From assembly GCA_016860845.1 (NCBI GenBank), contig BOKF01000011.1, positions 164,102 to 228,101 of the forward strand: DNA of 64,000 bases, written 5' to 3'. The DNA is from Chloroflexota bacterium. Lineage in GTDB: Bacteria; Chloroflexota; Anaerolineae; 4572-78; J111. Below the pieces are notes generated by a model, which saw only the letters and a list, made by a program, of their open reading frames with translations, was not told where the DNA came from and did not search any database. A program made the translations under genes and the position numbers. Each line of letters starts with the position of its first letter. The first letter of the stretch is position 1. This document shows, piece after piece, positions 28,350 through 47,030 of this stretch.

Positions 28350-29342
28350 TTAATCGTACAGGAGAGGTTTCATCTCTTCGGAGTCAACGTTGGATTTGTC
28401 ATACCATTTGAAGCCGGTGTCAATATTCTTCTCTACTTTTTCGCCCTTGATGGCCTTGACCGCGGCCTCAACACATTTGTAGCCAATGCCAACGGGGTCC
28501 TGGGTGATGGCCCCGGCGACGGTCCCGGCGCGGATTTCATCCTTCAACTGCTTGCCGGCGTCGTAGCCGATCATCACAATCTGGCCTTCTTTGCCCATCT
28601 CTTTGACGCCGTTCATGACACCCTTCATCGAGCCTTCGTTGGCCCCAAAGTAACCTTTGAGGTCCGGATTGGCGGCGATAACGGCCTTGACAATGTCAGT
28701 GGACTTTTGGGGGTCACCAGCGCCATACTGCGTGTCAACAATGGTGATCTTGGGATATTTGGCCTTGATCTGGTCGGTGAAGCCCTTAACCCGGTCAATC
28801 CCGGTGCGGCTGGTCTGGTCGTGGGCAATAATCGCCACTTTGCCTTCGCCGACCAACTCGGCCATCTTGTCGGCGGCATAAGCAGCAGCGGCAATGTTGT
28901 CCGTGGCGGCGGTAGCGACAGGAATATCGCTGTCTACGCCGGAGTCAAAACCGACCACCGGGATATTGGCCGCCTTGGCCTTCTCTAACAGGGGGACGGC
29001 TGCTTTACTGTCGAGCGCGGCAAAACAGATCGCAGCGGGTTTCTTGTCGAGCGCGGTTTGCAGCATTTCAATCTGCTTGTCAACCTCTGACTCGCTGCCA
29101 GGGCCTTCAAAGGTAATATCTACATTTAAGTCCTTGGCCGCCTGCTCCGAACCCTGCTTAACCGCTTGCCAGAATTGGTGCTGGAAGCCCTTGGAAATCA
29201 CCGGGATGTAGGGCTTGGCCCCCGCGGCACTTTCGCCGCCCGATGGCTGGGCAGGCGCGGCCGCCGGTTGAGCGCCACAGGCGGCGATCAGCGCTACCAC
29301 AAGCAGCAGTCCTAAAAGAACAAACAACTTTTTGGATTTCAT
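28350..29342 (-). CDS. Sugar ABC transporter substrate-binding lipoprotein
   Basis: A 330-residue periplasmic-binding-protein type I lipoprotein. The signal peptide ends with the lipobox LIAAC, so Cys22 is lipid-anchored. A Gly/Ala/Pro-rich spacer then leads into YIPVISKGFQHQFWQAVKQG, the ribose-type fold. VVGFDSGVDSD and VMIGYDAGKQLKDEI are hinge and ligand segments. GGAG lies 8 bases before the ATG at 29342. The permease and ATPase genes lie upstream in the same operon. The ligand is a pentose- or deoxyhexose-like sugar by context. Confidence 0.92.
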   Translation of the reverse strand: MKSKKLFVLLGLLLVVALIAACGAQPAAAPAQPSGGESAAGAKPYIPVISKGFQHQFWQAVKQGSEQAAKDLNVDITFEGPGSESEVDKQIEMLQTALDKKPAAICFAALDSKAAVPLLEKAKAANIPVVGFDSGVDSDIPVATAATDNIAAAAYAADKMAELVGEGKVAIIAHDQTSRTGIDRVKGFTDQIKAKYPKITIVDTQYGAGDPQKSTDIVKAVIAANPDLKGYFGANEGSMKGVMNGVKEMGKEGQIVMIGYDAGKQLKDEIRAGTVAGAITQDPVGIGYKCVEAAVKAIKGEKVEKNIDTGFKWYDKSNVDSEEMKPLLYD

Positions 29343-29427
29343 TACTAAATCTCCTCTTCTTAAAAAAATTGATTTTATTGTTAAGCTCCAAGTGGAGCGA
29401 TTAACCAAATCAGCTTTGATCTCGTTA

Positions 29428-29472
29428 ATCTCGTTCCCACGCAAAGCGTGACGCGAAGCGTGGGAACGAGAT
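29428..29472. repeat. Palindromic element in the operon, between permease and binding protein
   Basis: ATCTCGTTCCCACGC (29428-29442) pairs perfectly with GCGTGGGAACGAGAT (29458-29472). The stem would lie just upstream of the binding-protein mRNA and may stabilise it or allow separate expression. Confidence 0.85.
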
Positions 29473-29481
29473 TGAAACACG

Positions 29482-30459
29482 TTATTTTTGACGGCGACGG
29501 ATAATATCCAGGTACACAGCCAGGATCAGGATGACGCCGGTAATGACGATTTGCCACTCTTGCGGCACCGACAGGATACGCAGCCCGTTATTCAGGGTAC
29601 TGATGATAAACGCGCCAATGATCGTCCCCAGGATAGTGCCCTCCCCGCCGCTCAGAGAGGTGCCGCCAATGACTGCCGCCGCGATGGCATCCAACTCATA
29701 CCCCTGCCCTAGCGACGGCTGGGCCGAGTTAATGCGGGCCGAAACAACGACGCCGGCCAGGCCGGCAAACAGACCGCCGAGCGTGTAGACGATAATCTTC
29801 CAGGTGCCGGTATTAACCCCGGAGAGACGAGTCGCCTCCTCGTTACTACCCAGGGCAAAGGTATAACGGCCCAAAACTGTCTGGGTGAGAACCAGGCTGG
29901 CAATGATGGCAGCACCGAATAAAACTAGGACGGCATTCGGGATCTCAATACCGGGGACAATCGAACCCATAGCAATCATCCGGTAGGCAGGGGTCTCATC
30001 GAAATAGATGGGCTTTAGGCCGGAAATGACCAGGGAAAGTCCCTTGGCTACATACAACATACCCAGTGTGGCCACAAAGGGCGGCATATTCAGCTTGGCA
30101 ATAATCACCCCATTGATCAAACCGCACAGCGCGCCGGTAGCTAACCCGGCCAATACCCCCAGGGGCACCGGCAATCCCCAGAAGGTGATAAAGACCCCGG
30201 CCATAACCGAGGCCAGCGTCATCACCGTTCCGATGGACAAATCAATACCGCCGGTGATAATAACAAACGTGACCCCCAGGGCCAGCAGCCCGTTAACCGC
30301 CGTAGCCAGGAAGATACCAATGACGTTGTCGAAGGTAAAAAAGTATGGCGAAGCTATTGAAAACACAACGAACAAGAGAATTAAGGCTCCAAATGCCAGC
30401 AGCCGCTGCATCGCATCCGAGCGAAGCATAGATCTTTTTGGGGCGACAGTAGTTTCCAT
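29482..30459 (-). CDS. Sugar ABC transporter permease (RbsC-like)
   Basis: A 325-residue inner-membrane permease with about ten hydrophobic segments. GVTFVIITGGIDLSIGTVMTLA is the family signature. GSNEEATRLSGVN is the cytoplasmic loop that contacts the ATPase, and AVIGGTSLSGGEG is the conserved late loop. It starts 2 bases after the ATPase stop, so translation is coupled. It pairs with the binding protein at 28350 and the ATPase at 30462. Confidence 0.93.
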   Translation of the reverse strand: METTVAPKRSMLRSDAMQRLLAFGALILLFVVFSIASPYFFTFDNVIGIFLATAVNGLLALGVTFVIITGGIDLSIGTVMTLASVMAGVFITFWGLPVPLGVLAGLATGALCGLINGVIIAKLNMPPFVATLGMLYVAKGLSLVISGLKPIYFDETPAYRMIAMGSIVPGIEIPNAVLVLFGAAIIASLVLTQTVLGRYTFALGSNEEATRLSGVNTGTWKIIVYTLGGLFAGLAGVVVSARINSAQPSLGQGYELDAIAAAVIGGTSLSGGEGTILGTIIGAFIISTLNNGLRILSVPQEWQIVITGVILILAVYLDIIRRRQK

Positions 30460-30461
30460 AG

Positions 30462-31991
30462 TTAGGCACTCCCTGATGCCGTAATTAGCGTGGCTTCACC
30501 ACGTTGGGTGGCATAAGTCATAATTTTTTCTTGAGTGGCCTCAGCACTGCTTAGTTCACCGGTGATGCGGCCTTCGCACATCACAATAATCCGGTGACTC
30601 ATGCGCAGGATTTCCGGCAGTTCTGAAGAAATCATGATGACTGATTTGCCCTGCTGGGCCAGATCGTTGAGCAGCCGATAAATTTCGCTCTTGGCTCCTA
30701 CATCAATCCCGCGGGTCGGTTCATCAAAGATCAGGATGTTGCAGTCACGGGTCAACCACTTGCCAATAACCACTTTCTGCTGGTTGCCGCCGGAAAGGTT
30801 CTTGACCCGCTGCTGCAACCCCGGTGTTTTAATGGCGAGCGCGCTGACAAAATGCTCCGCCGTCGTGCGCGTCTCCCCTTGATTGACCCAACCCAGAAAT
30901 CCCAGGAACTTTTTCAGGGTCGCCAGTACGATATTGGTTTCCACATCCAAACCCAGGGCCAGACCGTAGCGCTTTCGATCCTCGGACAGATAGCCGATGC
31001 CGTGCTTTACTGCATCAGTCGGACTCTTAATCCGAACTTTTTGACCCTGGACATAGATTTCACCTGTATCAACGCTATCCGCCCCAAAAATGGCCCGCGC
31101 TACCTCAGTGCGCCCGGCTCCCACCAGTCCTGAAAAGCCGAGGATTTCACCCTTTTTCAGATTAAAGCTGACATTCTTGAGAACATTACCCCGGTTAAGA
31201 TTTTTTACCTCAAGCACAGCTTCCTGGCTGGGGTTTTCTGGGACTTCGGGCGCAGACTCGTAAATGGTTCGGCCAACCATCATACTGATGATCCGGTCAA
31301 TGGTGACCTCCTGAGTAGGCACAGTATCAATATAGCGGCCATCCCGCATGACCGTGATCCGGTCGGAAATTTGTTTGAGTTCTTCCAGGCGGTGGGAAAT
31401 ATGAATAATGCCCGCTCCCCGATCCCGCAGTTGGCGGATGATACGGAAGAGTTCGTCTATTTCCGTATCGGTCAATGCTGCTGTCGGCTCGTCCATAATC
31501 AGCACTTCGGCATTTAAAGACAGAGCCTTGGCGATTTCTACCATCTGCTGCATGGCTACGGTCAGATTTGCCACCTTACTGCGCGGATCCAACTTCAGGT
31601 GCATCATATTGAGCAACTGCTGCGTCTTTTCGTTGATGGCTTTTTCGTCTAACAAAAAATTGCCTTTGCGCGGCTCACGCCCGATGAAAATATTCTGGGC
31701 CACCGTGAGATGGGGCATCAGGTTAAGTTCCTGGTGGATCATGCTGATACCCAGGTTTAGGGATGCTCTGGGGTTGGGAACTTCGACTTCTGTGCCCTTA
31801 TAAAGGATACGGCCTGCATCTTTAGGGTAGATACCGGTGAGCACTTTCATCAATGTAGATTTGCCGGCCCCGTTTTCACCGACCAGGGCATGCACTTCGC
31901 CAGGGCGGAGATCAAAACGGCATTGGCTGAGCGCATGGACCCCGGGAAAACTCTTTTCTATCCCTTCCATCAAAACTAAGGTTTCAGGCAT
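30462..31991 (-). CDS. Sugar ABC transporter ATP-binding protein (RbsA-like, duplicated)
   Basis: A 509-residue protein with two ABC domains. The first has [12 protein letters not shown] as Walker A and [12 protein letters not shown] as Walker B. The second has the degenerate loop [32 protein letters not shown] as signature and [12 protein letters not shown] as Walker B. This is the RbsA/MglA pattern in which the second site is weakened. It follows the LacI regulator by 35 bases in the same direction and energises the permease at 29482. Confidence 0.95.
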
Positions 31992-33332: not shown

Positions 33333-35090
33333 TCAGGGCAACATCAACCGCAAAAATTCCTGCTCCGCCTCCAGGGTCCATTCCCGGCCTTTATTCAATT
33401 TAGCATAAACGGTGGGCAGTCTATCATTCAACTGGGTTAAAGGAGTCAGCGGAAATTCTTTAATATGGGGAAAAATAACGACTTTCCCCGGAAATGTAGC
33501 CTCACGAACCGCCTCATACCCGGCCCGCGCCGCTTCGAGCGAGCCAACCGCCGCCACCGTGTGATTAGGCGATAACCGGCCGCTTTCTACATGTTCCAGC
33601 ATCAAACGCATATCGGGAATGGTTGAACCGGAGTGACCAATAACGCGAATATCGCGCTGGCAGACCAGGTTTAAATCAAGCGTGACCATTGTGCCCCGCT
33701 TGAGGCCGGCAAAAACATTCATGACCCCGCCTGGAGCCAAGTAGGCGGCGGCATCGGCCACGGCCTCAGCAGAGGGAGCCAGGACAATAATATCGTCAAA
33801 GCCGTCGCCGGCCACCTCGGCCAATCGCTCCCGGTAAGCGGGGTCGTCGGCGCTGAGACAGGTAAAATTTACATTCTCGGTCCTGGCTCTGGCCCAAAAT
33901 TCACTTTCGATGGTCTGCAAGCGGTGCCAGGTGAGGGCTGTACAGAGCAGGGCCGCCGGCGGCTGGTCCAATTGCAGCACCCACTGGACATGCATATGGC
34001 CCATCGGTCCCCCGGCGCCAACCAGCCAGGTCTTGCCGCCCGCTTTTAACTGGGAACGGACGGGCTGGCGGCGATAGACCTGGGCAATATCAGGGCCAGA
34101 ACCGCCGATATAAAGCGAGCGGTGATAGTGAACCTGGCCAATATCCACCTGCACCAACCGGGGCAGCGGTGTATCGGCCATGATGGCGACAATACCAAAG
34201 TGGGCCAGGTGCGGACTGGCCGCCTCGATGATATCGGGGTCGGGGCCGAGGATAATGATATCGTCAAAACCGGGCGGCAGTGGGTCAAAATGAATCGTCT
34301 CAGCTTTGTGGCGCAGCCGCTCATCGTAACTCTTTTGCCGTTCCAGCGGTAAGTCCACCACTTCGATGGACAGCCGGGCCGCCTGCTCGCGCAGATGGGC
34401 GGCAAAAGTGGGCGGCACATTGCTCAGGACCAGCCGGGCCGGGTGGTTCGCCTCGTCCAGGCCGGCGCTGAAAAAGTAGTCATCCCTGGCCTGCGGCGTG
34501 CCGATGATCCAGGTAACGCCGCCCGGCTTCAACCCGGTCCGATAGGTCTGGTTATAGGTTGCCACTACACACGCCCACGGCTCGACCAGGGCGCTTTCGG
34601 CATAACCGGTCTGCGGCTGCACCGGGATAAGGTAATTGCCCTCGTCGCCGTGCAGTACCCGCTCGCCAATTACACTATAGTGGGACATGCCGCCCTGAAT
34701 CATATAGCCGTAGGCATAGTTGATTCCGCCATAGTAAACATCAGCCTGGACAATAAAACGATCCCCGATCTTGTATTGACCGGCTAAATTTTCGCCCACG
34801 CCGACGATAGTCAGGGCCACTTCGTGACCCAGCACTACCGGCTCTTTTTTCATATCACGAAAGATACGCGGATGCTGCTCCCCGGCGTTAATAACTTTGA
34901 TATCGGAAAAGCAAATGCCACAGGCATCGTGCCGGACCAACAGTTCGTCCGGCCCGTAGCTGGGTATATCTACCGCAATCGGCCGGCCATTACGGCCCAG
35001 ATTTTCAAAACCGGCCCCATAGAGCGGCCATAAGCGATTCTCGCTGCTCTGGATTGTGGCCCGGCGGTACAGTTCTAATTTGTCAACCAT
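33333..35090 (-). CDS. Large MDR-family dehydrogenase with doubled Rossmann part, copy A
   Basis: A 585-residue protein. The N-terminal GroES-like domain has HDACGICFSDIKV (zinc Cys) and LGHEVALTIVG (His-Glu), as in L-sorbose-1-phosphate reductase-like enzymes. It is about 200 residues longer than usual MDRs (350-410). The segment GFDDIIILGPDPDIIEAASP at about residue 285 and GFDDIIVLAPSAEAVADAA at about 465 are similar to each other, so the nucleotide-binding part seems duplicated, with WLVGAGGPMGHMHVQ as the better Rossmann loop. The SDR upstream is sorbitol-6-phosphate dehydrogenase-like, so a hexitol or ketose phosphate is the likely substrate. ATG 35090 matches the start of copy B. It is the last gene of the DeoR-headed operon. 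Confidence 0.75.
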   Translation of the reverse strand: MVDKLELYRRATIQSSENRLWPLYGAGFENLGRNGRPIAVDIPSYGPDELLVRHDACGICFSDIKVINAGEQHPRIFRDMKKEPVVLGHEVALTIVGVGENLAGQYKIGDRFIVQADVYYGGINYAYGYMIQGGMSHYSVIGERVLHGDEGNYLIPVQPQTGYAESALVEPWACVVATYNQTYRTGLKPGGVTWIIGTPQARDDYFFSAGLDEANHPARLVLSNVPPTFAAHLREQAARLSIEVVDLPLERQKSYDERLRHKAETIHFDPLPPGFDDIIILGPDPDIIEAASPHLAHFGIVAIMADTPLPRLVQVDIGQVHYHRSLYIGGSGPDIAQVYRRQPVRSQLKAGGKTWLVGAGGPMGHMHVQWVLQLDQPPAALLCTALTWHRLQTIESEFWARARTENVNFTCLSADDPAYRERLAEVAGDGFDDIIVLAPSAEAVADAAAYLAPGGVMNVFAGLKRGTMVTLDLNLVCQRDIRVIGHSGSTIPDMRLMLEHVESGRLSPNHTVAAVGSLEAARAGYEAVREATFPGKVVIFPHIKEFPLTPLTQLNDRLPTVYAKLNKGREWTLEAEQEFLRLMLP

Positions 35091-35117
35091 ATTGGCAGAT
35101 TCCCCCACAGAGAAGGT

Positions 35118-35198
35118 TAAACAAGGACCACCGACCACCGCGACGGCCGACCGCCATTCAGTCCCGTCGGCGGTCGGTGGTCATCGGTCGGCGGTCGA
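35118..35198. repeat. Inverted repeat, GACCACCGACC family
   Basis: AAGGACCACCGACCACCGCG and GACGGCCGACCGCC on the left pair with GGCGGTCGGTGGTC on the right, twice. It fills the gap between the SDR and MDR copy A. Confidence 0.7.
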
Positions 35199-35199
35199 G

Positions 35200-35991
<792 letters not shown>

Positions 35992-36081: not shown

Positions 36082-37809
36082 TTACGGCAGCATCAACTCC
36101 AAAAATTCTTTCTCCGCTTCAATCGTCCATTCATGGCCATCTTTTAGCTTGGCATAGACGGTCGGCAGTTTCTCTTTCAATTCCGGCAGGGCGGTCAAGG
36201 GAAATTCCTTGATGTGGGGGAAGATAACTATCTTGCCAGGGAATTTGGCATCGCGCACGGCCAGGTAGCCATCTTTCGCCGCTGAGAGCGACCCAATTGC
36301 AGCCACCGAGCGATTGGGCGAGAGGTGCCCTGTTTCGGTTTCACGCAGCATCAGGCGCAGATCTTCGATGGTTGAGGCGGTGTGGCCGATGAATCGCTTG
36401 TTTTGCAGGTACACAGCGCTCAAATCAAGCGTGACCATCGTGCCGCGTTTGACTCCGGCAAAAACGTTCATCACACCTTCCGGGGCCAGATAAGCCGCCG
36501 ACTCGCTGATCACCGGCGGGACCGGCACCAGGCCGATAATATCGTCAAAGCCGGCTCCGGCCAGCTCGGCCAGCCGCTGCTGATAGTCCGCCTCTTGGGC
36601 CGATAAACAGACAAACTCGATCCCTTTGGCGCGCGCCTCCGCCCCGAGCATGTCGTCCAGCGCCTGCAGCCGCTCCTGGACCAGATCGGTGCAGAGAATG
36701 AGAGCGGGCGGCTGCGACAGTTGAACGGCTCGCTGGGCATGCATCTGGCCCATCGGCCCGCCCGCGCCGACAAACCAGGTTTTACCACCCGGCTTCAGTT
36801 CCGCCCGGATGCGATGGTCGCTGTAGGCAAGGGCAATATCCGGCCCCGGCCCGCCGACGTAAGTCCAGCGGTTATAATGCACCCGGCCCATATCCACCTG
36901 GACCGGCCGAGGCAGGGGTTTATCGGCCACGAGAGTGACAATACCAAAATCAGCCAGGTAGGGGCTGGCGGCTTCGATTACTTCAGGGTCAGGGCCGAGA
37001 ATGATGATGTCGTCAAAGGATGAAGGGTCTGCTTCTCTGCTTTCCTTTAATCTTTCTAAAGGTATTTCGACAACCTCGACCTGCAGCCGAGCGGCCTGCT
37101 CCCGGAGGCGGGCAGCAAACGCTTGGGGGACATGGGTGAGAGCCAGTTGGCGGGGATGAGCTTTCTCGTCGAAACCGGCACCGAAAAAGTAATCGTCCCT
37201 GGCTGCGGCAGTACCAATGAGCCAGGTGACACCGTCCGGTTTGAGGCTGGTGCGGTAGCGGAGGTGGTAGGCCGCAATCACACAGGCCCACGGCTCGGCC
37301 AGAGCGCTTTCGGCATACCCGGTCTGCGGTTGGACGGGAATGAGATAATTTCCATCATCGCCATTAAGCACGCGCTGGTCAATGACGCCGTAGTGGGACA
37401 TACCGCCCTGGATCATATAGCCATAGGCGTAGTTGATCCCGCCCGACCAGACATCGGCCTGGATAATCAAACGGTCGCCAATTTTATACTGGCCGCGCAG
37501 CTTTTCACCCACGCCGACCACGGTCATGGCAACTTCGTGGCCCAGGACGACCGGCTCTTTCCGCATATCCCGAAAGATACGCGGATGCTGCTCGCCGGCG
37601 TTGATGACTTTGATATCGGAAAAGCAGATACCGCAGGCGTCGTGACGAACCAGTAATTCATCCGGGCCGTACAAGGGAAAGTCTACGGTAATCGGTTGGC
37701 CATCGCGGCCCAGATTTTCAAAGCCAGCGCCGTACAACGGCCACAGGCGGTTTTCTTTAGAGATCTCTTTAGCCTGGCGATAGCGGCTTAATTTGTCAGA
37801 CATGCTCAT
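36082..37809 (-). CDS. Large MDR-family dehydrogenase with doubled Rossmann part, copy B
   Basis: A 575-residue paralogue of the 33333 gene, alike along its whole length. It has HDACGICFSDIKV, LGHEVAMTVVG, FVGAGGPMGQMHAQ, and the duplicated FDDIIILGPDPEVIEAASP and FDDIIGLVPVPPVISESAA segments. Keeping two diverged copies around one SDR suggests two related substrates or a heteromer. AGGA lies 4 bases before the first ATG (37809) and 10 before the second (37803); either may start. It follows the PHP gene by 73 bases. Confidence 0.75.
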   Translation of the reverse strand: MSMSDKLSRYRQAKEISKENRLWPLYGAGFENLGRDGQPITVDFPLYGPDELLVRHDACGICFSDIKVINAGEQHPRIFRDMRKEPVVLGHEVAMTVVGVGEKLRGQYKIGDRLIIQADVWSGGINYAYGYMIQGGMSHYGVIDQRVLNGDDGNYLIPVQPQTGYAESALAEPWACVIAAYHLRYRTSLKPDGVTWLIGTAAARDDYFFGAGFDEKAHPRQLALTHVPQAFAARLREQAARLQVEVVEIPLERLKESREADPSSFDDIIILGPDPEVIEAASPYLADFGIVTLVADKPLPRPVQVDMGRVHYNRWTYVGGPGPDIALAYSDHRIRAELKPGGKTWFVGAGGPMGQMHAQRAVQLSQPPALILCTDLVQERLQALDDMLGAEARAKGIEFVCLSAQEADYQQRLAELAGAGFDDIIGLVPVPPVISESAAYLAPEGVMNVFAGVKRGTMVTLDLSAVYLQNKRFIGHTASTIEDLRLMLRETETGHLSPNRSVAAIGSLSAAKDGYLAVRDAKFPGKIVIFPHIKEFPLTALPELKEKLPTVYAKLKDGHEWTIEAEKEFLELMLP

Positions 37810-39225: not shown

Positions 39226-39330
39226 ATGAGGTGAGGAATCGTCTCCAAGAGGAGCCTGGCACTGAGGCAAGAAGGCGAAAGGGATGATCATATTTCTTGT
39301 CCTCACGTCCTCGTTTCTTCGCCTCATCCT
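39226..39330. repeat. Inverted repeat, GAGGCGAAGAAACGAGG family
   Basis: ATGAGGTGAGGAATCG and AGGCAAGAAGGCGAAAGG on the left partly pair with CCTCACGTCCTCGTTTCTTC and GCCTCATCCTTTCCC on the right. It fills the gap between the PHP and aldolase genes. Confidence 0.6.
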
Positions 39331-40085
39331 TTCCCTATAACCCACTGCCGGTAATGTTCATCAGGGCGAGTGTGAATCCGGGCAACAGCCTGGGGAGTCA
39401 TAAAACAGGGGCCGCCGAGCGCATAAGCGCCGACCAAAATACGGGCCGCTTTGACCGCCATGGCCGTGATATTTTCAACCTGCTGGGCGGTGGGAGCCAG
39501 GGCAATAAAGCCGTGATTCTGCATGTAGATGGTTCTGGGCCGCTCACCGTGGGTATCAATGTAAGTTTTGATCCGGTGATAAACCTCACGGGCCAGAGGT
39601 AGACCGGGATCAACGTAGGGAATCACCACCGGAGCCGGGCCGCACAGCACAATTTCGTCGGGGAAAAGGCGGCCGCTCAAGGCCGTTTCAAAAGCGGTAG
39701 AACAGGTAATCATATTGATCGCAGAGGGGTGCGTGTGACCCACAAAGTTGACCCCGGCCAACTTGAGACACATGGCGTGCAGCGCCGTTTCAACCGAAGG
39801 ATGGCCCTTGGTTTGCGGGTCTACTTTGGCGGCAACGAGGGTTTGTTTGACCGCCTCATCGCTCAGATCAGAGCCGTGGAGCATCGCCAAAATTGGTTCA
39901 AAATAAACCTGTACAAACCCTTCGGGGCCAACAGTGCGTAATTCTGTCCCGCTGGCTTTGACCCAAAAAGTTTCATCGTCAACCTTAACGGAGGTATTAC
40001 CCTCCCCTAAAATTACATAATCGTTGGTAGGGTCACCAAGGTTATTGGACAGGGTAATAAGCTGGGTGAGTAGTTCATTTGTCAT
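39324..40085 (-). CDS. Class II aldolase/adducin family protein
   Basis: A 253-residue zinc aldolase-fold protein. GEGNTSVKVDDETFWVKASG is the substrate phosphate-binding region. VGHTHPSAIN gives the HxH zinc ligands, and YMQNHGFIA the third His. Relatives are L-fuculose-1-phosphate and L-rhamnulose-1-phosphate aldolases, which yield dihydroxyacetone phosphate and lactaldehyde. With FucI and an FGGY kinase 20 kb away it could complete L-fucose breakdown. It directly follows the importer genes of this operon. Confidence 0.88.
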   Translation of the reverse strand: MTNELLTQLITLSNNLGDPTNDYVILGEGNTSVKVDDETFWVKASGTELRTVGPEGFVQVYFEPILAMLHGSDLSDEAVKQTLVAAKVDPQTKGHPSVETALHAMCLKLAGVNFVGHTHPSAINMITCSTAFETALSGRLFPDEIVLCGPAPVVIPYVDPGLPLAREVYHRIKTYIDTHGERPRTIYMQNHGFIALAPTAQQVENITAMAVKAARILVGAYALGGPCFMTPQAVARIHTRPDEHYRQWVIGKG

Positions 40086-40183: not shown

Positions 40184-41458
40184 TTAGAATTGGAAATTGT
40201 CAATGTTGCTAGGATCAAAGACGAAAGGCGGCCCAAGTAAGACTTCACCGTTTTCGTCAATAGTGTACGAGCCTAACTTGCCGGCATCAAAGGTGTCACC
40301 AGGCTTGCCTTCGATCTGGCCACTCGAAATTGCATTCAAGGTGTAGATGGCCAGGTAGCCCAGGTCTTCCGGATTCCACAGGGCGAAAGCCGGACAAGCG
40401 CCACTCTTGACATATTCACGCATCTGGCTGGGCAATCCCAAACCAGTCACCGCAACTTTGCCAACCATGCCTTGATCCTGAACCGCGCGAGCCGAAGCGG
40501 CGATACCGACGGTCGTCGGGGCGATAATAGCCTTCAGGTCAGGATAGGTTTTCATTAGGCCCAGGGCTTCATTATAGCTCTTCTCATCGTCGTCATCACC
40601 GTAGACCGTGGCGACCAATTTAACATCGGCATATTCAGGCTTGGTCAACTCGTCATTCATCCACTTGATCCACTCATTTTGGTTGGGCGCAGTGGAGGTA
40701 GCACTGAGGATAGCAATTTCGCCTGCGCCGTCAATGAGCTTGGAGACTAACTCAATCTGACCGCGGCCAATGCCTTCGGCGGTAGCTTGGTTGATGTGAA
40801 CGGTCCGGCCACCGGGAGCAATCGCTGCATCCCAACTAACCACAGGGATACCCGCTTCAATGGCGGATTTTCCCACCGGCACTAACGCATCGGAATCATT
40901 GGCCGAAACAGCCAGGCCATCCACTTTTTGGGCAATCAGCGAGTTGAGTAATTGAATCTCCTCGGTAGCATCAGCAGTAGCGGACCCTTGATAGGTCACG
41001 GTTACACCCAATTCCGCAGCAGCGGCCTGAGCGCCAACATTGGCTGCGTCAAAATAGGGGTTGCCCAGGTTTTTGGGAACCAAAACGTAGCTCTTGCCAC
41101 CACCAGCCGCCGGGGCCGCTGCCGGAGCTTCGGCAGGAGCTGCGCCGCCCATCATCACCTGAGCATCGTCCGCACTGGGAATGCAGAGCTTCCAGCCGGG
41201 TTCGATCAGGTCGGCATTGGCAATCGTCGCGTAGCTGCTGTCACTCTTGGCGGCAGCATTGGTGGCGTCGAAGATGGCCGGATAGGCCAGTACGTCGCCA
41301 TAGAATTTGTCGGCCAGCTTGCTCAGCCAGTCGTCGGCCTGGACGCTGTAATCCTGGTCACAAGCCACCGCTTCTTGGGCCAGCACGGCGGTTGCCGAGG
41401 GAACCAACAAAGCCAGCAAGAGGACAATGGCCATTACTTTGGTTAAACTTTTAAGCAT
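40184..41458 (-). CDS. Sugar ABC transporter binding protein with N-terminal LysM-like domain
   Basis: A 424-residue exported protein. A signal peptide covers about residues 1-28. Residues 36-98 (YSVQADDWLSKLADKFYG through IEPGWKLCIP) read as a LysM-like module, which normally binds peptidoglycan. An Ala/Pro-rich linker leads to the binding-protein domain from about residue 123 (YVLVPKNLGNPYFDAANVG), which resembles rhamnose (RhaS) and AI-2 (LsrB) binders. The LysM module would hold the protein near the cell wall in place of a lipid anchor. AGGAG lies 8 bases before the ATG. Genes for its permeases and ATPase lie just upstream. Confidence 0.88.
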   Translation of the reverse strand: MLKSLTKVMAIVLLLALLVPSATAVLAQEAVACDQDYSVQADDWLSKLADKFYGDVLAYPAIFDATNAAAKSDSSYATIANADLIEPGWKLCIPSADDAQVMMGGAAPAEAPAAAPAAGGGKSYVLVPKNLGNPYFDAANVGAQAAAAELGVTVTYQGSATADATEEIQLLNSLIAQKVDGLAVSANDSDALVPVGKSAIEAGIPVVSWDAAIAPGGRTVHINQATAEGIGRGQIELVSKLIDGAGEIAILSATSTAPNQNEWIKWMNDELTKPEYADVKLVATVYGDDDDEKSYNEALGLMKTYPDLKAIIAPTTVGIAASARAVQDQGMVGKVAVTGLGLPSQMREYVKSGACPAFALWNPEDLGYLAIYTLNAISSGQIEGKPGDTFDAGKLGSYTIDENGEVLLGPPFVFDPSNIDNFQF

Positions 41459-41653: not shown

Positions 41654-43693
41654 CTACCTCACACAGCGGAAACCCAGATCATCGTTGGCCGAGTCGGGTG
41701 CTGCGGCAGAACGGTTAGCCGAGCGCACCTGCGGCTCCTCGTCAAACCAACCACCGCCGCGCGTTACTCGAAGCTGGTCACTGTAGAATTTATCCTGATA
41801 GGTGCTGTTAGGGTAAGGCTGATAAGGGTCAGCCGTCCATTCCCAAACGTTCCCGGCCATATCCTCAACTCCATAGGCGCTGGCCCCGCCGGGAAAGCTG
41901 CCGACCGCTACGGTCCCACGGATGCCACTGGCTTTCAAGTTGGCCTTGCTGGCATCAAAGGTGTTGCCCCAGGGGAAAAGATTGCCCTGATCGCCACGAG
42001 CCGCCTTCTCCCATTCTTGCTCAGTGGGCAGCCGCTTGCCCAGCCACTCACAGAAGGCCTGGGCATCATTCCAAGTGACCCTGACCACGGGATGATTGCC
42101 CTTACCTTCGACATCACTGCGCCACGTTTTCTTGGCCCCTTTCTTTTCGGCTTCAGTTTGGTAGCCCGTAGCGTTCACAAACAGCATAAAATCGTCATGG
42201 GTCACTTCAAAGTGATCAATCTGGTAGGCCGGTAAATTAATGGTCTGGGCCGGGCCTTCGTTGGGTTCCCCGGTGTCATCGCCAAAAGTGAAGGGGCCAG
42301 CCGGAATTCCGATCATATCCTCAACCGGTTTGGGCGGTTCGGTTGGGGTCGGAGTCGGGGTCGGCATGGAGGTGGCTGCTTCAACCTGTTTCTGTACTGC
42401 GGCAGCGGTGTTTGTGGGGGCAGGTGTCGGCGTTAAGGTTGGGGTAGGGCTGGGACGAGGAGTCGGGGTGGGCGGCAGCTTGACCGGGGTCGGCGTTGGT
42501 TTCAAAACCACGGCCGGCAGCGGCGTGGCCGTTGGCGGCCGTGGCGTCGGCTCCGGCGTCACCAGCACCAGGTTGCGGGACCAGGTAAAAAAGTTGCCAA
42601 ACAGGACAGCGACAAGGCCAACCACCACAACTCCCCCCATCGCGCTGCGAGTCAATTTGAGGCCGCCGCCCGATACCAACCGGCCCAGACGGGGCAGCAA
42701 AATCGCCAAAATCAGCAGCAGGCCGATAATGATACCCTGCACCTGGCCCTGGATGTTGACCAGGCTCATGCCAAAGCGCAGCACGCCGATGAGGATCAGC
42801 GACAAAACAGCGCCAACCATCGTGCCGGTGCCGCCGGCAATGTCCACCCCGCCCAGGACGGTGGCGGTGATGACATCCAATTCCAGGCCCAACCCAATAT
42901 CCGGGCGAGTGCTGCCAAAACGGGCCGCCAGCACAATACCGGCCAGGGCGGCCATGAAGCCGGACAGGGTAAAGATAACCAGCTTAATCCGGTCAACCGC
43001 TACCCCGGAGTAGCGGCATGCTTCTTCATTGCTGCCAATAGCGTACAACATGCGTCCGAAGGTGGTTTTGTGCAGGACCAGGCCAAAAATAAGGGCCATC
43101 ACCCCAAACAGCAGCATCGAGAAGGGAACCGGCGTATTGCCCAATTTGCCCTGCCCCAGATAGGTGAAAGCCTCAGGATAGCCCCGCGCCGCTTCATCGC
43201 CGAGCAGGACATAAGCAATGCCCCGGTAAAGAGCGTAAGTCGCCAGGGTCACTACCAGCACCGGCAGTTTAATCCGGGTAATGAGCAAGCCATTGGCTAG
43301 CCCCGCCAGCGATCCCAGCACCAAGGCGGCTGCGGCAGCCGCCCAGATATTCCAGCCGTTATTAAACAGCCAGCCCATAAATGAAGCGCACATGCCCAGG
43401 TTTGAAGCCACCCCCAGGTCAACGCTGCCCGTAGCGATGATGATAAAGGCCATGGGCAGCATCATCAACCCCAACTCCATAAAGTCCGAGGCGGTTCTAA
43501 ACAGGTTGTTAGCCTCCAGAAAAAAAGGAGAGAGCCGGGTATTGATCAGACTGGTCAGGATGATCAACAGGACCAGGAACCATTCCCAGCGCATAAAAAT
43601 TGAGGCCAGAGAGCGCGGCGGAGTAGACCAGACTCCTTCAGCTTTGGCTGCCCCGGTTGTAACCGATACGTTAGATTCGGATGGCATCGTCAT
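41654..43693 (-). CDS. Sugar ABC permease fused to an extracytoplasmic FGE-sulfatase domain
   Basis: A 679-residue fusion. Residues about 30-345 are a RhaP/RbsC-type permease with IIIATGSVDLGVASNLG, GSNEEACRYSGV and VLGGVDIAGGTG. Another membrane segment (about 350-370, GGVVVVGLVAVLFGNFF) brings the chain outside. Residues about 378-456 are a Pro/Thr repeat linker. From about 457 on is a formylglycine-generating-enzyme/SUMF1 domain: MIGIPAGPFTFGDDTGEPNE, HPVVRVTWNDAQAFCEWLG, RLPTEQEWEKAARG, MAGNVWEWT, RVTRGGGWFDEE and the ending LGFRCVR. The catalytic Cys pair of true FGE, expected shortly after RGG, is missing, so this is probably a binding module. Its ATG overlaps the stop of the second permease by four bases. 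Confidence 0.88.
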   Translation of the reverse strand: MTMPSESNVSVTTGAAKAEGVWSTPPRSLASIFMRWEWFLVLLIILTSLINTRLSPFFLEANNLFRTASDFMELGLMMLPMAFIIIATGSVDLGVASNLGMCASFMGWLFNNGWNIWAAAAAALVLGSLAGLANGLLITRIKLPVLVVTLATYALYRGIAYVLLGDEAARGYPEAFTYLGQGKLGNTPVPFSMLLFGVMALIFGLVLHKTTFGRMLYAIGSNEEACRYSGVAVDRIKLVIFTLSGFMAALAGIVLAARFGSTRPDIGLGLELDVITATVLGGVDIAGGTGTMVGAVLSLILIGVLRFGMSLVNIQGQVQGIIIGLLLILAILLPRLGRLVSGGGLKLTRSAMGGVVVVGLVAVLFGNFFTWSRNLVLVTPEPTPRPPTATPLPAVVLKPTPTPVKLPPTPTPRPSPTPTLTPTPAPTNTAAAVQKQVEAATSMPTPTPTPTEPPKPVEDMIGIPAGPFTFGDDTGEPNEGPAQTINLPAYQIDHFEVTHDDFMLFVNATGYQTEAEKKGAKKTWRSDVEGKGNHPVVRVTWNDAQAFCEWLGKRLPTEQEWEKAARGDQGNLFPWGNTFDASKANLKASGIRGTVAVGSFPGGASAYGVEDMAGNVWEWTADPYQPYPNSTYQDKFYSDQLRVTRGGGWFDEEPQVRSANRSAAAPDSANDDLGFRCVR

Positions 43694-44706
43694 GCTAGTT
43701 TCCTCACCGTCAGGGTTCGCTGTAAGCGGCGCAAAATCAAGGAGTCAACCACAACAGCCAGCAAAATCAACAACCCCTGGGCCGCCAACTGCCAGAAGGG
43801 TGAAATCCGCACCAGGGTTAAGGCATTGTTGATGATCCCCAGCAGGAAAGCTCCTAATAACACCCCGGTGACTGTCCCACTGCCGCCAAAAATATTGACT
43901 CCACCCACCACCGAGGCCGCCACGGTCTGTAATTCAAAGCCCAGGGCGGTATTCGTCTGGGCCGATTCAAAACGTGAGACCCACAGCACACCGGCCAGGC
44001 CGCACAACAGGCCGCATATTAAATAAACGCTAAAGATGATCCGTTGCACCCGGATACCGGCTACTTCGGCCGCGGCAGGGTTGCTGCCGACGGTATAAAT
44101 ATCCCGTCCCATACGGGTGTAGTTGAGAAAATAGTAGATAATGGCTGCCACAATCAGGGCAAAGATGACCAGATTAGGCAGCCCCAAGGGGGTGCCTTTA
44201 GCCAGCACTTTAATGCTCTGCGGCAGCTCAAAAGCATTAATCCAGGTGCCCTCGCTGTAAAGAAAAACGGCCCCACGGTAGATGCTCAACGTGCCTAACG
44301 TGGCAATAATCGGCGGCACCTTGCCGACCGTAATCAGCAGCCCATTGAAACTGCCCAGCACACAGCCCAGAGCCATCCCCAGCAGCAGCGCCAAAACCGG
44401 CGAAAGTTCGGGATTGGCCTTAATCACAAAGGCGACCATCATCGCCACCAGCCCGATCATCGAACTCACCGAGAGGTCAATACCCCGCGTGATAATGACC
44501 ATAGTCTGGCCCAGGGCTACAATCGCCAGGATCGAGATATTCAGCAAAATATCGCGAAAATTTTCCAGGCTTAAAAAGGCCGAGCCGCTGCGCAGACCGA
44601 CCAGGATAACCAGCAGAATAATAAAAACAATGATCCCGGTTTCACGCAGGGTAGCTAACGTAAATAGCACATTTTGTTTAGGCGCTTCTGCCGCTTTTAT
44701 GGTCAC
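43690..44706 (-). CDS. Sugar ABC transporter permease (RhaQ/RbsC-like)
   Basis: A 338-residue permease with about ten hydrophobic segments, without extra domains. VIITRGIDLSVSSMIGL, GSNPAAAEVAGIR and VVGGVNIFGGSG are the family marks. With the fused permease it forms a heterodimer, as RhaP/RhaQ do. It starts with GTG and ends in the ATGA overlap with the next gene. The ATPase gene lies 33 bases upstream. Confidence 0.93.
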   Translation of the reverse strand: MTIKAAEAPKQNVLFTLATLRETGIIVFIILLVILVGLRSGSAFLSLENFRDILLNISILAIVALGQTMVIITRGIDLSVSSMIGLVAMMVAFVIKANPELSPVLALLLGMALGCVLGSFNGLLITVGKVPPIIATLGTLSIYRGAVFLYSEGTWINAFELPQSIKVLAKGTPLGLPNLVIFALIVAAIIYYFLNYTRMGRDIYTVGSNPAAAEVAGIRVQRIIFSVYLICGLLCGLAGVLWVSRFESAQTNTALGFELQTVAASVVGGVNIFGGSGTVTGVLLGAFLLGIINNALTLVRISPFWQLAAQGLLILLAVVVDSLILRRLQRTLTVRKLA

Positions 44707-44739: not shown

Positions 44740-46233
44740 CTACATGGCCATTGTCGCGGCCAGCATCACTTTTTCCTGGGTGGCCTCACTCCGGCTGAGT
44801 TCACCGGTCAGCCGGCCTTCCCGCATCACCAAAATACGGTCGCTCATGCCTAGGACTTCCGGCAGTTCAGATGAAATCATGATGATGGCCATGCCTTGCG
44901 CCGCCAGTTGGCTCATCAGCCCATGCACGGCTGCCTTGGTTCCGACATCAATCCCGCGCGTTGGCTCGTCCAGAATGAGGATGCGCGGCTTGGTGGTCAG
45001 CCATTTGGCCAACACCACCTTCTGCTGGTTGCCCCCCGACAGCTCCCGCGCTTTCTGCCACAACCCGGCTGCCCTGACCTCCATCTGAGTCGCAGCCTGG
45101 CGGGCCGTCTGCTGCTCACCCTGGCCAATTAACCAACCCATCCGGGCAAATTCTGACAGGATAGGCAAGGTGATATTTTGCGAGATCGGCAGCGGCAGAA
45201 TCAAGCCGTGATGCTGCCGGTCTTCGGGGACGTAAGCCAGCCCCAGACGCATGGCCTGTTCCGGACTGGTAATTTTGACCGGCTGGCCATCAATCTTTAT
45301 CACCCCGCCGGTAGCGGGGTCTATGCCAAAGATAGCCCGGGCCACGTCGGTGCGGCCCGCTCCGACCAGGCCGGCCATCCCCAATATCTCACCCTGACGC
45401 AGTTCAAAGGAAACATCGCGGAACAAGCCCTCCCGGCTCAACCCCTCGACTTGCAGAACGACCTTGCCGGCCTCCACGTCGAGCTTGGGGAACATGTCGG
45501 CCAGGGTGCGGCCGACCATCATCTGGATCAGGCTGTCGGTTGTGACCTCGCCGATGGTTTTGGTGCCGACATAGGCCCCGTCGCGCAGGACGGTTACCCG
45601 GTCGGCCAGTTGGAAAAGTTCTTCCAAGCGGTGAGAGATAAAGACAATGGCCGTACCGGCCTCACGCAGTTGGCGAACGATACGAAACAGATCGTCTACC
45701 TCGGCCAGGGTCAGCGAAGAGGTCGGCTCATCCATAATCAAAATCTTGGCATGAACAGAGAGCGCGCGGGCAATCTCAACCATCTGCTGCTGGGCCACAC
45801 TCAGGTTGCGCGCCTTTGTTTTTGGCTCAAGCTCCACGCCCAGCGAGTCAAGCAAAGCAGCGGCATCCTGGTGCATCCGGCCCCAGGCAATCTGGCCAGC
45901 CCCGCGGGTCGGCTGGCGGCCCACAAAAATATTCTCAGCAATATCCAAATCCGGAAAGAGACTCGGCTCTTGATAAATGGCCGCAATCCCATGCTGGCGT
46001 GACTCCAGCGGGTTATGAAAGACTACGGGTTGGCCATAAAGCCGGATTTCACCGCCATCGGGCTGGTGGACGCCGGTGATTACTTTGATCAGGGTAGACT
46101 TGCCGGCCCCGTTCTCGCCCAGCAAGGCATGTACTTCGCCGGGCCGCAGGTCAAAGGAAACATCGCGCAGGGCATGAACCCCGGCAAAACTTTTGCTGAT
46201 ATGCTCCATTTCGAGAATGGTGTTGTTGGTCAT
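44740..46233 (-). CDS. Sugar ABC transporter ATP-binding protein (RhaT/RbsA-like, duplicated)
   Basis: A 497-residue twin ABC protein. The first half has [12 protein letters not shown] (Walker A), NLSVAQQQMVEIARAL and ILIMDEPTSSLT. The second has [31 protein letters not shown] and [12 protein letters not shown]. The second Walker A is degenerate, as usual in this group. It follows the DeoR regulator by 26 bases. It powers the two permeases downstream. Confidence 0.95.
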   Translation of the reverse strand: MTNNTILEMEHISKSFAGVHALRDVSFDLRPGEVHALLGENGAGKSTLIKVITGVHQPDGGEIRLYGQPVVFHNPLESRQHGIAAIYQEPSLFPDLDIAENIFVGRQPTRGAGQIAWGRMHQDAAALLDSLGVELEPKTKARNLSVAQQQMVEIARALSVHAKILIMDEPTSSLTLAEVDDLFRIVRQLREAGTAIVFISHRLEELFQLADRVTVLRDGAYVGTKTIGEVTTDSLIQMMVGRTLADMFPKLDVEAGKVVLQVEGLSREGLFRDVSFELRQGEILGMAGLVGAGRTDVARAIFGIDPATGGVIKIDGQPVKITSPEQAMRLGLAYVPEDRQHHGLILPLPISQNITLPILSEFARMGWLIGQGEQQTARQAATQMEVRAAGLWQKARELSGGNQQKVVLAKWLTTKPRILILDEPTRGIDVGTKAAVHGLMSQLAAQGMAIIMISSELPEVLGMSDRILVMREGRLTGELSRSEATQEKVMLAATMAM

Positions 46234-46259: not shown

Positions 46260-47030
46260 TTAAACGAGCAAGACTTCAATCCCGCGCTGCCGCATTTCAT
46301 TAACCATCGCTATGGGCGCATCGGAGTCGGTAATAAGCAGGTGGATTTGCTCCGCCGCAGCGAAGGTGGCCGTTGCAACATTGCCCCATTTACGGGCATC
46401 AATGACTCCAACTACCCGACGGCAGCATTCAACCATAGCTCGTTTCATCGTCACTTCACTCAGGTTGACATCGGTCAGACCTTCACTGGCGGTCACTCCA
46501 CGCGCGCCAAAAAAACCAAGCTGGACGTTGATGCCTTCCAGGGAATTATCTGGCGGCTGGCCCACCACCGAAATGGACTCGCGCCGCAGTTGACCGCCCG
46601 GCAAAATTACGTGAATCTGGGGTGAGTCGAGCAGACTCAGCGCCGCTTTGAGGCTGTTGGTGATGACGGTCAATTCGGATAACGGTTTAAGATAGGGGAT
46701 CATGGCTTGAGCAGTGGTGCTGGCATCGAGGAAGATCGTGTCGCCATGAGTAACCAATGTGGCCGCAGCCTGGCCGATGCGCCGCTTTTGGGCGGCCTGC
46801 TGCTGCTGGCGCACATCAAAGGAAAATTCGGGCATAACGGTGGTGGCAAAAGCCCGGCCTCGCGTGCGCAGTAACAGGCCTTGATTGCTCAAAGCCTGCA
46901 AATCCTGGCGGATCGTCACTTCCGACACGTCGAAGCGAACGCTCATATCTTCTACAGAGAGTTCGCCGGCCTCTTCGAGGGCAGCCAGGATATTTTGCCT
47001 ACGTTCCACCAGGCGGTGTTCTTTGCCCAA
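46260..47030 (-). CDS. DeoR family transcriptional regulator
   Basis: A 256-residue repressor. Residues 7-60 are the DeoR helix-turn-helix (RRQNILAALEEAGELSVEDM, SEVTIRQDLQALSNQG). The DeoRC sensor domain follows, with ASTTAQAMIPYL, VITNSLKAA, LPGGQLRRE and FFGARGV, which bind a phosphorylated sugar. The start is TTG 47030, with GAGGTGG 4 bases before it. It heads its own operon behind an excellent promoter with an inverted repeat at the start point, so it very likely represses itself and the importer. Confidence 0.92.
   Translation of the reverse strand: MGKEHRLVERRQNILAALEEAGELSVEDMSVRFDVSEVTIRQDLQALSNQGLLLRTRGRAFATTVMPEFSFDVRQQQQAAQKRRIGQAAATLVTHGDTIFLDASTTAQAMIPYLKPLSELTVITNSLKAALSLLDSPQIHVILPGGQLRRESISVVGQPPDNSLEGINVQLGFFGARGVTASEGLTDVNLSEVTMKRAMVECCRRVVGVIDARKWGNVATATFAAAEQIHLLITDSDAPIAMVNEMRQRGIEVLLV

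Follow-up and report, generated by a model that had tools for sequence, protein, structure and literature searches.

A sugar permease fused to a cysteine-less FGE-like domain in Chloroflexota and its proposed role as a dock for a LysM-tagged binding protein

The FGE-like domain fused to a sugar ABC permease in an uncultured environmental Chloroflexota bacterium probably docks the LysM-tagged binding protein (SBP) of the same operon beside the pore, in place of a lipid anchor on the SBP. The fusion gene lies in a stretch of 64,000 nucleotides of contig BOKF01000011.1, hereafter the window, to which all coordinates refer. Bacteria without an outer membrane usually keep binding proteins near their importers via lipid anchors or direct fusion. 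In the arrangement proposed here, the fusion would supply half of the permease in a rhamnose-type ABC importer and bring its own docking arm: the permease part would end inside the cell, an extra helix would cross the membrane, and a Pro/Thr tether of 81 residues would hold the FGE-like domain outside. This catalytically dead domain would grip the N-terminal LysM of the operon's own SBP, and the gripped SBP, without the usual lipid anchor, would stay beside the pore. The contact between FGE domain and LysM would be direct, and SBP retention would be the purpose of the FGE domain. In relatives, the same dock would be a separate lipoprotein whose gene stands just upstream of LysM-tagged SBPs of several importer kinds. 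The linked importers have in common the LysM tag and the FGE domain, on whose side the anchor lies, but neither cargo nor SBP fold. A more general proposition, to which we give even chances, is that a Cys-less FGE-fold socket, either lipid-anchored or permease-fused, holds LysM-plugged SBPs of unrelated importers, as one adaptor pair for sugar, amino-acid and peptide uptake that has undergone fusion to permeases at least twice.

The fusion gene (41654..43693, minus strand) is a single open frame of 679 aa. The Pfam family BPD_transp_2 (PF02653) matches residues 64-330 at 143.8 bits against a cutoff of 26.8, as expected of a CUT2-type permease, and FGE-sulfatase matches residues 457-679 at 213.7 bits against a cutoff of 23.3, as expected of the FGE fold. 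Between them lie an additional hydrophobic helix, at about residues 345-373 by hydropathy and at 349-373 in the AlphaFold model, and the Pro/Thr linker at residues 376-456 (81 aa, with 27 Pro and 19 Thr). Pfam, hydropathy and AlphaFold thus bear out the anatomy given in a preliminary description of this DNA, that is, a permease, an extra membrane segment, a Pro/Thr linker and an FGE fold. A search with fusion residues 370-679 retrieved 1132 proteins, and the combination of permease and FGE-sulfatase, for which a domain-architecture search had been proposed, was found in 97 of the best 120 of the 1132. This recurrence rules out an assembly artefact or two misjoined genes, as does the presence of the same fusion at 98% identity in genome G011. 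In total, five of 25 genomes of one order (G011, G012, G014, G017 and G025) gave a full-length match, and the suspicion that the fusion occurs in this assembly only did not hold.

The proposed dock, the FGE-like domain, is encoded at 41654..42325 on the minus strand (residues 457-679 plus the stop). Its top PDB sequence match is human SUMF2 (1y4j, E 4e-39), FGE itself being next, and Foldseek searches with the domain found FGE structures. The domain contains only two cysteines, Cys548 and Cys677, each at a frequency of 1.0 in an alignment of 97 fusions; the two correspond to a structural disulfide of human FGE, as would suit an exported domain. In alignments to human FGE, whose catalytic pair is presumably 336 and 341 (to judge from the C336S/C341S entries), Asp651 stands at the first catalytic Cys, and the second falls inside an insertion that is absent here. 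The first position is Asp in this domain and Glu in the RbsC-type rows shown. With Asp651 at one catalytic position and a gap at the other, the domain has the fold of active FGE (SUMF1) without its catalytic Cys pair and was rejected as such an enzyme; the missing pair had been claimed previously, together with the view of the domain as a binder and not a catalyst, which holds up.

The old active site nevertheless appears, from residue conservation, to have been remodelled and retained. Across 77 family rows and 17 other FGE rows, the latter including one protein (P0110) that looks like a family member, conservation is 92% versus 18% for G648, 99% versus 12% for F650, 99% versus 18% for D671 and 94% versus 12% for D672. 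The conserved stretch with G648 and F650, and the fact that the FGE-fold proteins EgtB, SenA and PvdO are enzymes, would suit a domain that is still an enzyme of other chemistry and modifies the SBP. We regard this as very improbable, given that the catalytic Cys pair is absent and that the NCBIfam scores for SenA, EgtB and PvdO (117, 114 and 77 bits) are far under the cutoffs of 420, 360 and 500. Membership in PorK/GldK was also rejected (TIGR03525, 80.2 bits against a cutoff of 350), as was a DGR-diversified lectin, since the window holds no second copy of the FGE DNA and short chance matches only.

The fusion gene belongs to a minus-strand operon in the order DeoR-type regulator, double ATPase, permease, permease-FGE fusion, SBP, aldolase and more catabolic genes. 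The regulator (46260..47030) is an AgaR-like member of the DeoR family and is followed by the double ATPase of the importer (44740..46233, 497 aa) and the second permease (43690..44706, 338 aa), which is RhaQ-like, unfused and overlaps the fusion gene by 4 bp. After a gap of 195 bp downstream of the fusion gene comes the proposed dock partner, a RhaS-type SBP of 424 aa (40184..41458) with a signal peptide and an N-terminal LysM, and then a class II aldolase (39324..40085). The SBP scores 429.5 bits against the RhaS model TIGR02637 (cutoff 342.25), and rhamnose-binding proteins are its closest solved structures; rhamnose would be the cargo of the importer. The window contains one FGE frame and one LysM frame. 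A second sugar ABC importer at 28350-31991 is of the ordinary kind and combines an unfused permease with an SBP (28350-29480) that shows a lipobox-like signal and lacks LysM. The aldolase and a short-chain dehydrogenase (35200-35991) are separate genes, and each resembles one half of the RhaEW-type enzymes, bifunctional proteins that have been described in Chloroflexi (PMC3870299). The same gene run includes two related large zinc-type dehydrogenase-like proteins, encoded at 36082-37809 (575 aa) and 33333-35138 (601 aa), which are 67% identical.

The preliminary description had ascribed an unusual wall-binding module to the SBP; profile matches to PF01476 and the AlphaFold fold identify this module as LysM. 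It occupies residues 33-98 (41165..41362, minus strand). In an alignment of LysM segments, 12 of 12 rows match PF01476 at E<=0.1, the window segment with 20.9 bits at a cutoff of 20.9, and the AlphaFold model of residues 33-94 has the beta-alpha-alpha-beta order of a LysM fold. In a Pfam scan of the full-length SBP at E<=0.01, LysM was not listed, and the NCBIfam LysM protein model matches weakly (24.8 bits, cutoff 134). The best-known ligands of LysM are glycans, normally peptidoglycan or chitin, which counts against the dock.

By pattern and by eye, the window SBP has no clear lipobox, and its sole Cys adjoins the LysM, after the normal end of a signal peptide. No clear lipobox was seen in any of 81 LysM proteins: 71 lack a candidate altogether, and in the other 10 a Cys lies a few residues before the LysM, past the normal signal-peptide end. 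For 32 SBPs without LysM, the strict lipobox pattern was found in 20, and the remaining 12 have, by eye, a well-placed Cys with a different preceding residue. The LysM-tagged SBPs span five Pfam families (Peripla_BP_4, Peripla_BP_6, SBP_bac_1, SBP_bac_3 and SBP_bac_5), and the LysM tag is therefore the element shared among them. The same LysM type is also carried by two proteins with 5'-nucleotidase domains (P0213 and P0224), so the tag is not restricted to SBPs.

Permeases bearing the FGE domain are of two different kinds. The 38 fusions compared include 22 whose permease shares 53-87% identity with that of the window (RhaP type) and 16 with an RbsC-type permease that is 26-29% identical to it. 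Fused permeases do not form one clade in the permease tree, in which one locus (L220) is labelled unfused solely because the contig stops at that point. The FGE tree places the domains of RhaP-type fusions in one clade (support 96) and those of RbsC-type fusions in another (support 85), and a single clade of both is rejected (p-AU 0.0146). The two fusion types therefore most likely arose separately; in the RhaP type, the fusion may have been gained repeatedly or lost later. A scan of the genome contigs with an FGE pattern gave, among the matches listed, mainly other FGE proteins.

In both permease kinds, the fusion goes together with a change in the SBP. All 11 unfused RhaP-type loci (L248-L257 and L261) encode a lipobox SBP without LysM, against an SBP with LysM and without a clear lipobox in all seven fused ones (the window, L115-L119 and L217); this comparison left out L260, where the SBP start is missing, and L219 and L220, which lie at contig ends. 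One of the seven, L217, was inferred to be a fusion split across two contigs, genomes of a single order supplied five of the fused loci other than the window, and L115 hardly differs from the window. For the RbsC type, the SBP is a lipoprotein (lipobox judged by eye) and lacks LysM in 9 of 9 readable unfused loci, L300, L305, L306 and L307 not being readable, and the single fused locus (L259) has a LysM SBP without a clear lipobox. The Fisher value for the comparison of loci is 3e-5, which overstates the case because the loci are related. Given this joint switch of fusion, LysM and lipobox, the SBP seems to have given up the membrane anchor to the FGE protein and, in the window, to the permease.

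Close relatives of the FGE domain also occur unfused, as separate proteins composed of a lipoprotein signal, a similar Pro/Thr linker and the FGE domain. The lipobox pattern was found in 45 of 52 stand-alone FGE proteins; four of the misses are cut at the N-terminus, and three have a fitting Cys by eye. In three loci (L258, L268 and L276), the order ATPase, permease, FGE lipoprotein and LysM-SBP is that of the window in unfused form. For the neighbourhood tally, ORFs below 230 bits and copies sharing the last 60 residues were left out, which gave 61 non-redundant FGE genes, seven of them cut by contig ends (L128, L210, L212, L213, L277, L285 and L287). A LysM-SBP gene lies downstream on the same strand in 41 of the 54 resolvable cases, at a distance of <=800 bp in 39; one locus (L171) came from the LysM side, and the tally without it is 40 of 53. 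In L281 and L211 the LysM gene is 1.1 and 1.4 kb off, with other ORFs between. The 13 FGE genes without a LysM neighbour comprise nine near an untagged SBP and four with no SBP seen; loose cases among the nine are L265 (by eye) and L279 and L280 (about 1.5 and 0.8 kb off), and L130 was counted as untagged with a LysM-SBP 2.6 kb downstream. Six additional FGE genes include four with a LysM-SBP, one without and one that is cut.

Since the close FGE relatives stand beside SBPs of five families, what unites them is not the cargo but, in 41 of 54 resolvable cases, the LysM tag. The earlier suggestion that the FGE domain binds the sugar and delivers it to the transporter is thus not supported. A lectin-like fold and the sugar importer in the window would agree with a domain that captures the sugar or glycan to be imported and passes it on, but close FGE relatives also accompany amino-acid and peptide SBPs (SBP_bac_3, SBP_bac_5 and Peripla_BP_6), and we consider such a role extremely improbable.

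A few FGE genes adjoin receptor-like or unrelated genes. In L205 and L206, an FGE lipoprotein gene is directly upstream of a gene for a large protein that is receptor-like by sequence only. Another recurring cluster has three members, namely a PBP6-type gene, a gene for an FGE lipoprotein from a single subclade, and an SBP3-type gene that lacks LysM; it was seen in L120, L121, L123, L130, L133, L207, L209 and L213, with parts missing in some contigs. Both neighbourhoods would suit FGE proteins that are signalling adaptors, reading SBP occupancy and informing receptors or regulators, the transporter link being secondary; next to the subclade with untagged PBP6- and SBP3-type genes (L120, L123, L130, L133, L207, L209 and L213) no permease of the probed types was called. 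Most FGE cases, however, adjoin LysM-SBPs, and the domain is itself part of two kinds of permease, which makes a signalling role improbable.

Seen from the other side, LysM genes far outnumber FGE genes. Three genomes contain 68 LysM family matches (28 in G011, 27 in G014 and 13 in G023), and of the 44 genes examined, seven have a neighbouring FGE gene and 37 have none; the seven are four of 41 examined together plus L115, L117 and L122, and in one of the 41 ORFs (L193) the LysM is close to the C-terminus. A strict one-to-one pairing of FGE and LysM is ruled out by the 37 of 44, a figure that, like the 13 FGE genes without a LysM neighbour, counts against the dock; the other LysM genes must be served by a dock encoded elsewhere or by plain wall binding. 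In this order, a genome encodes dozens of LysM-tagged exported proteins; the tag is broader than the FGE link. At the level of genomes, 199 of the class were compared at thresholds of E<=1e-75 for the FGE match and E<=1e-15 for the LysM family: the LysM family is present in all 23 genomes that have a close FGE match versus 16 of 176 others, where five candidates per genome were scored and FGE absence is a minimum call (G172 and G192 were scored negative yet have an FGE gene). The Fisher value of 5e-20 is overstated, as the number of candidates in each genome was capped and related genomes are not independent. Distances between FGE domains and between LysM segments in 38 pairs are correlated (r=0.58, Mantel p 0.0002; 0.36 between SBP families); this correlation was not used as evidence of contact because related organisms alone could give it.

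The width of the LysM family bears on an explanation with two wall-binders, in which the SBP is fixed in the wall by its LysM and a wall glycan is bound separately by the FGE domain; permease and SBP would thereby come together with no contact between these two domains. Peptidoglycan or chitin would be the normal LysM ligand, and since most of the examined LysM genes (37 of 44) have no FGE neighbour, LysM alone can presumably serve. A cell-wall partner for the FGE domain is possible, the FGE fold being a C-type-lectin-like fold used in ligand binding (PMC10907252). By itself, this explanation accounts neither for the lipid anchor or permease on the FGE side nor for LysM in 23 of 23 FGE-bearing genomes, and we judge it rather unlikely.

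If docking of LysM-tagged SBPs by the FGE domain is true, it would be a third way to hold SBPs, with a modular adaptor pair common to unrelated importers, and would account for some of the many FGE-sulfatase proteins in Chloroflexota. LysM would gain a protein partner, and the pair of tag and dock would be ready for use. Among the top matches listed from the open-access literature, no title or opening of an abstract describes the permease-FGE architecture or the pairing of FGE with LysM-SBPs.

Several known systems share parts of this design. SUMF2 (pFGE), the paralogue of human FGE and top PDB sequence match of the window domain, also lacks the Cys pair; unlike the window fusion, it is eukaryotic, not membrane-fused and without a link to transport. 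PorK and GldK, ring lipoproteins of type IX secretion, likewise have an FGE-like fold with no Cys pair and resemble the stand-alone proteins in being lipoproteins. PorK provides a solved precedent, in which groove regions of the Cys-less, FGE-like protein dock PorN (PMC12421860), and by analogy a PorK-like docking of the partner via the old groove is predicted here. Unlike PorK/GldK, the domain described here would have LysM-tagged SBPs as partners, and it also occurs in fusion with permeases. The importer GlnPQ, with its SBP fused to the permease (PMC8025302), is similar in effect, as the binding protein would also be kept at the pore here, whereas the window SBP is a separate gene product that would be held by a dock and not by a peptide bond. 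The window importer also resembles the RhaSTPQ-type rhamnose importer, with an SBP over the RhaS cutoff, two permeases, a double ATPase and an aldolase nearby; it differs from that type in the FGE domain on one permease and in an SBP with LysM instead of a lipobox.
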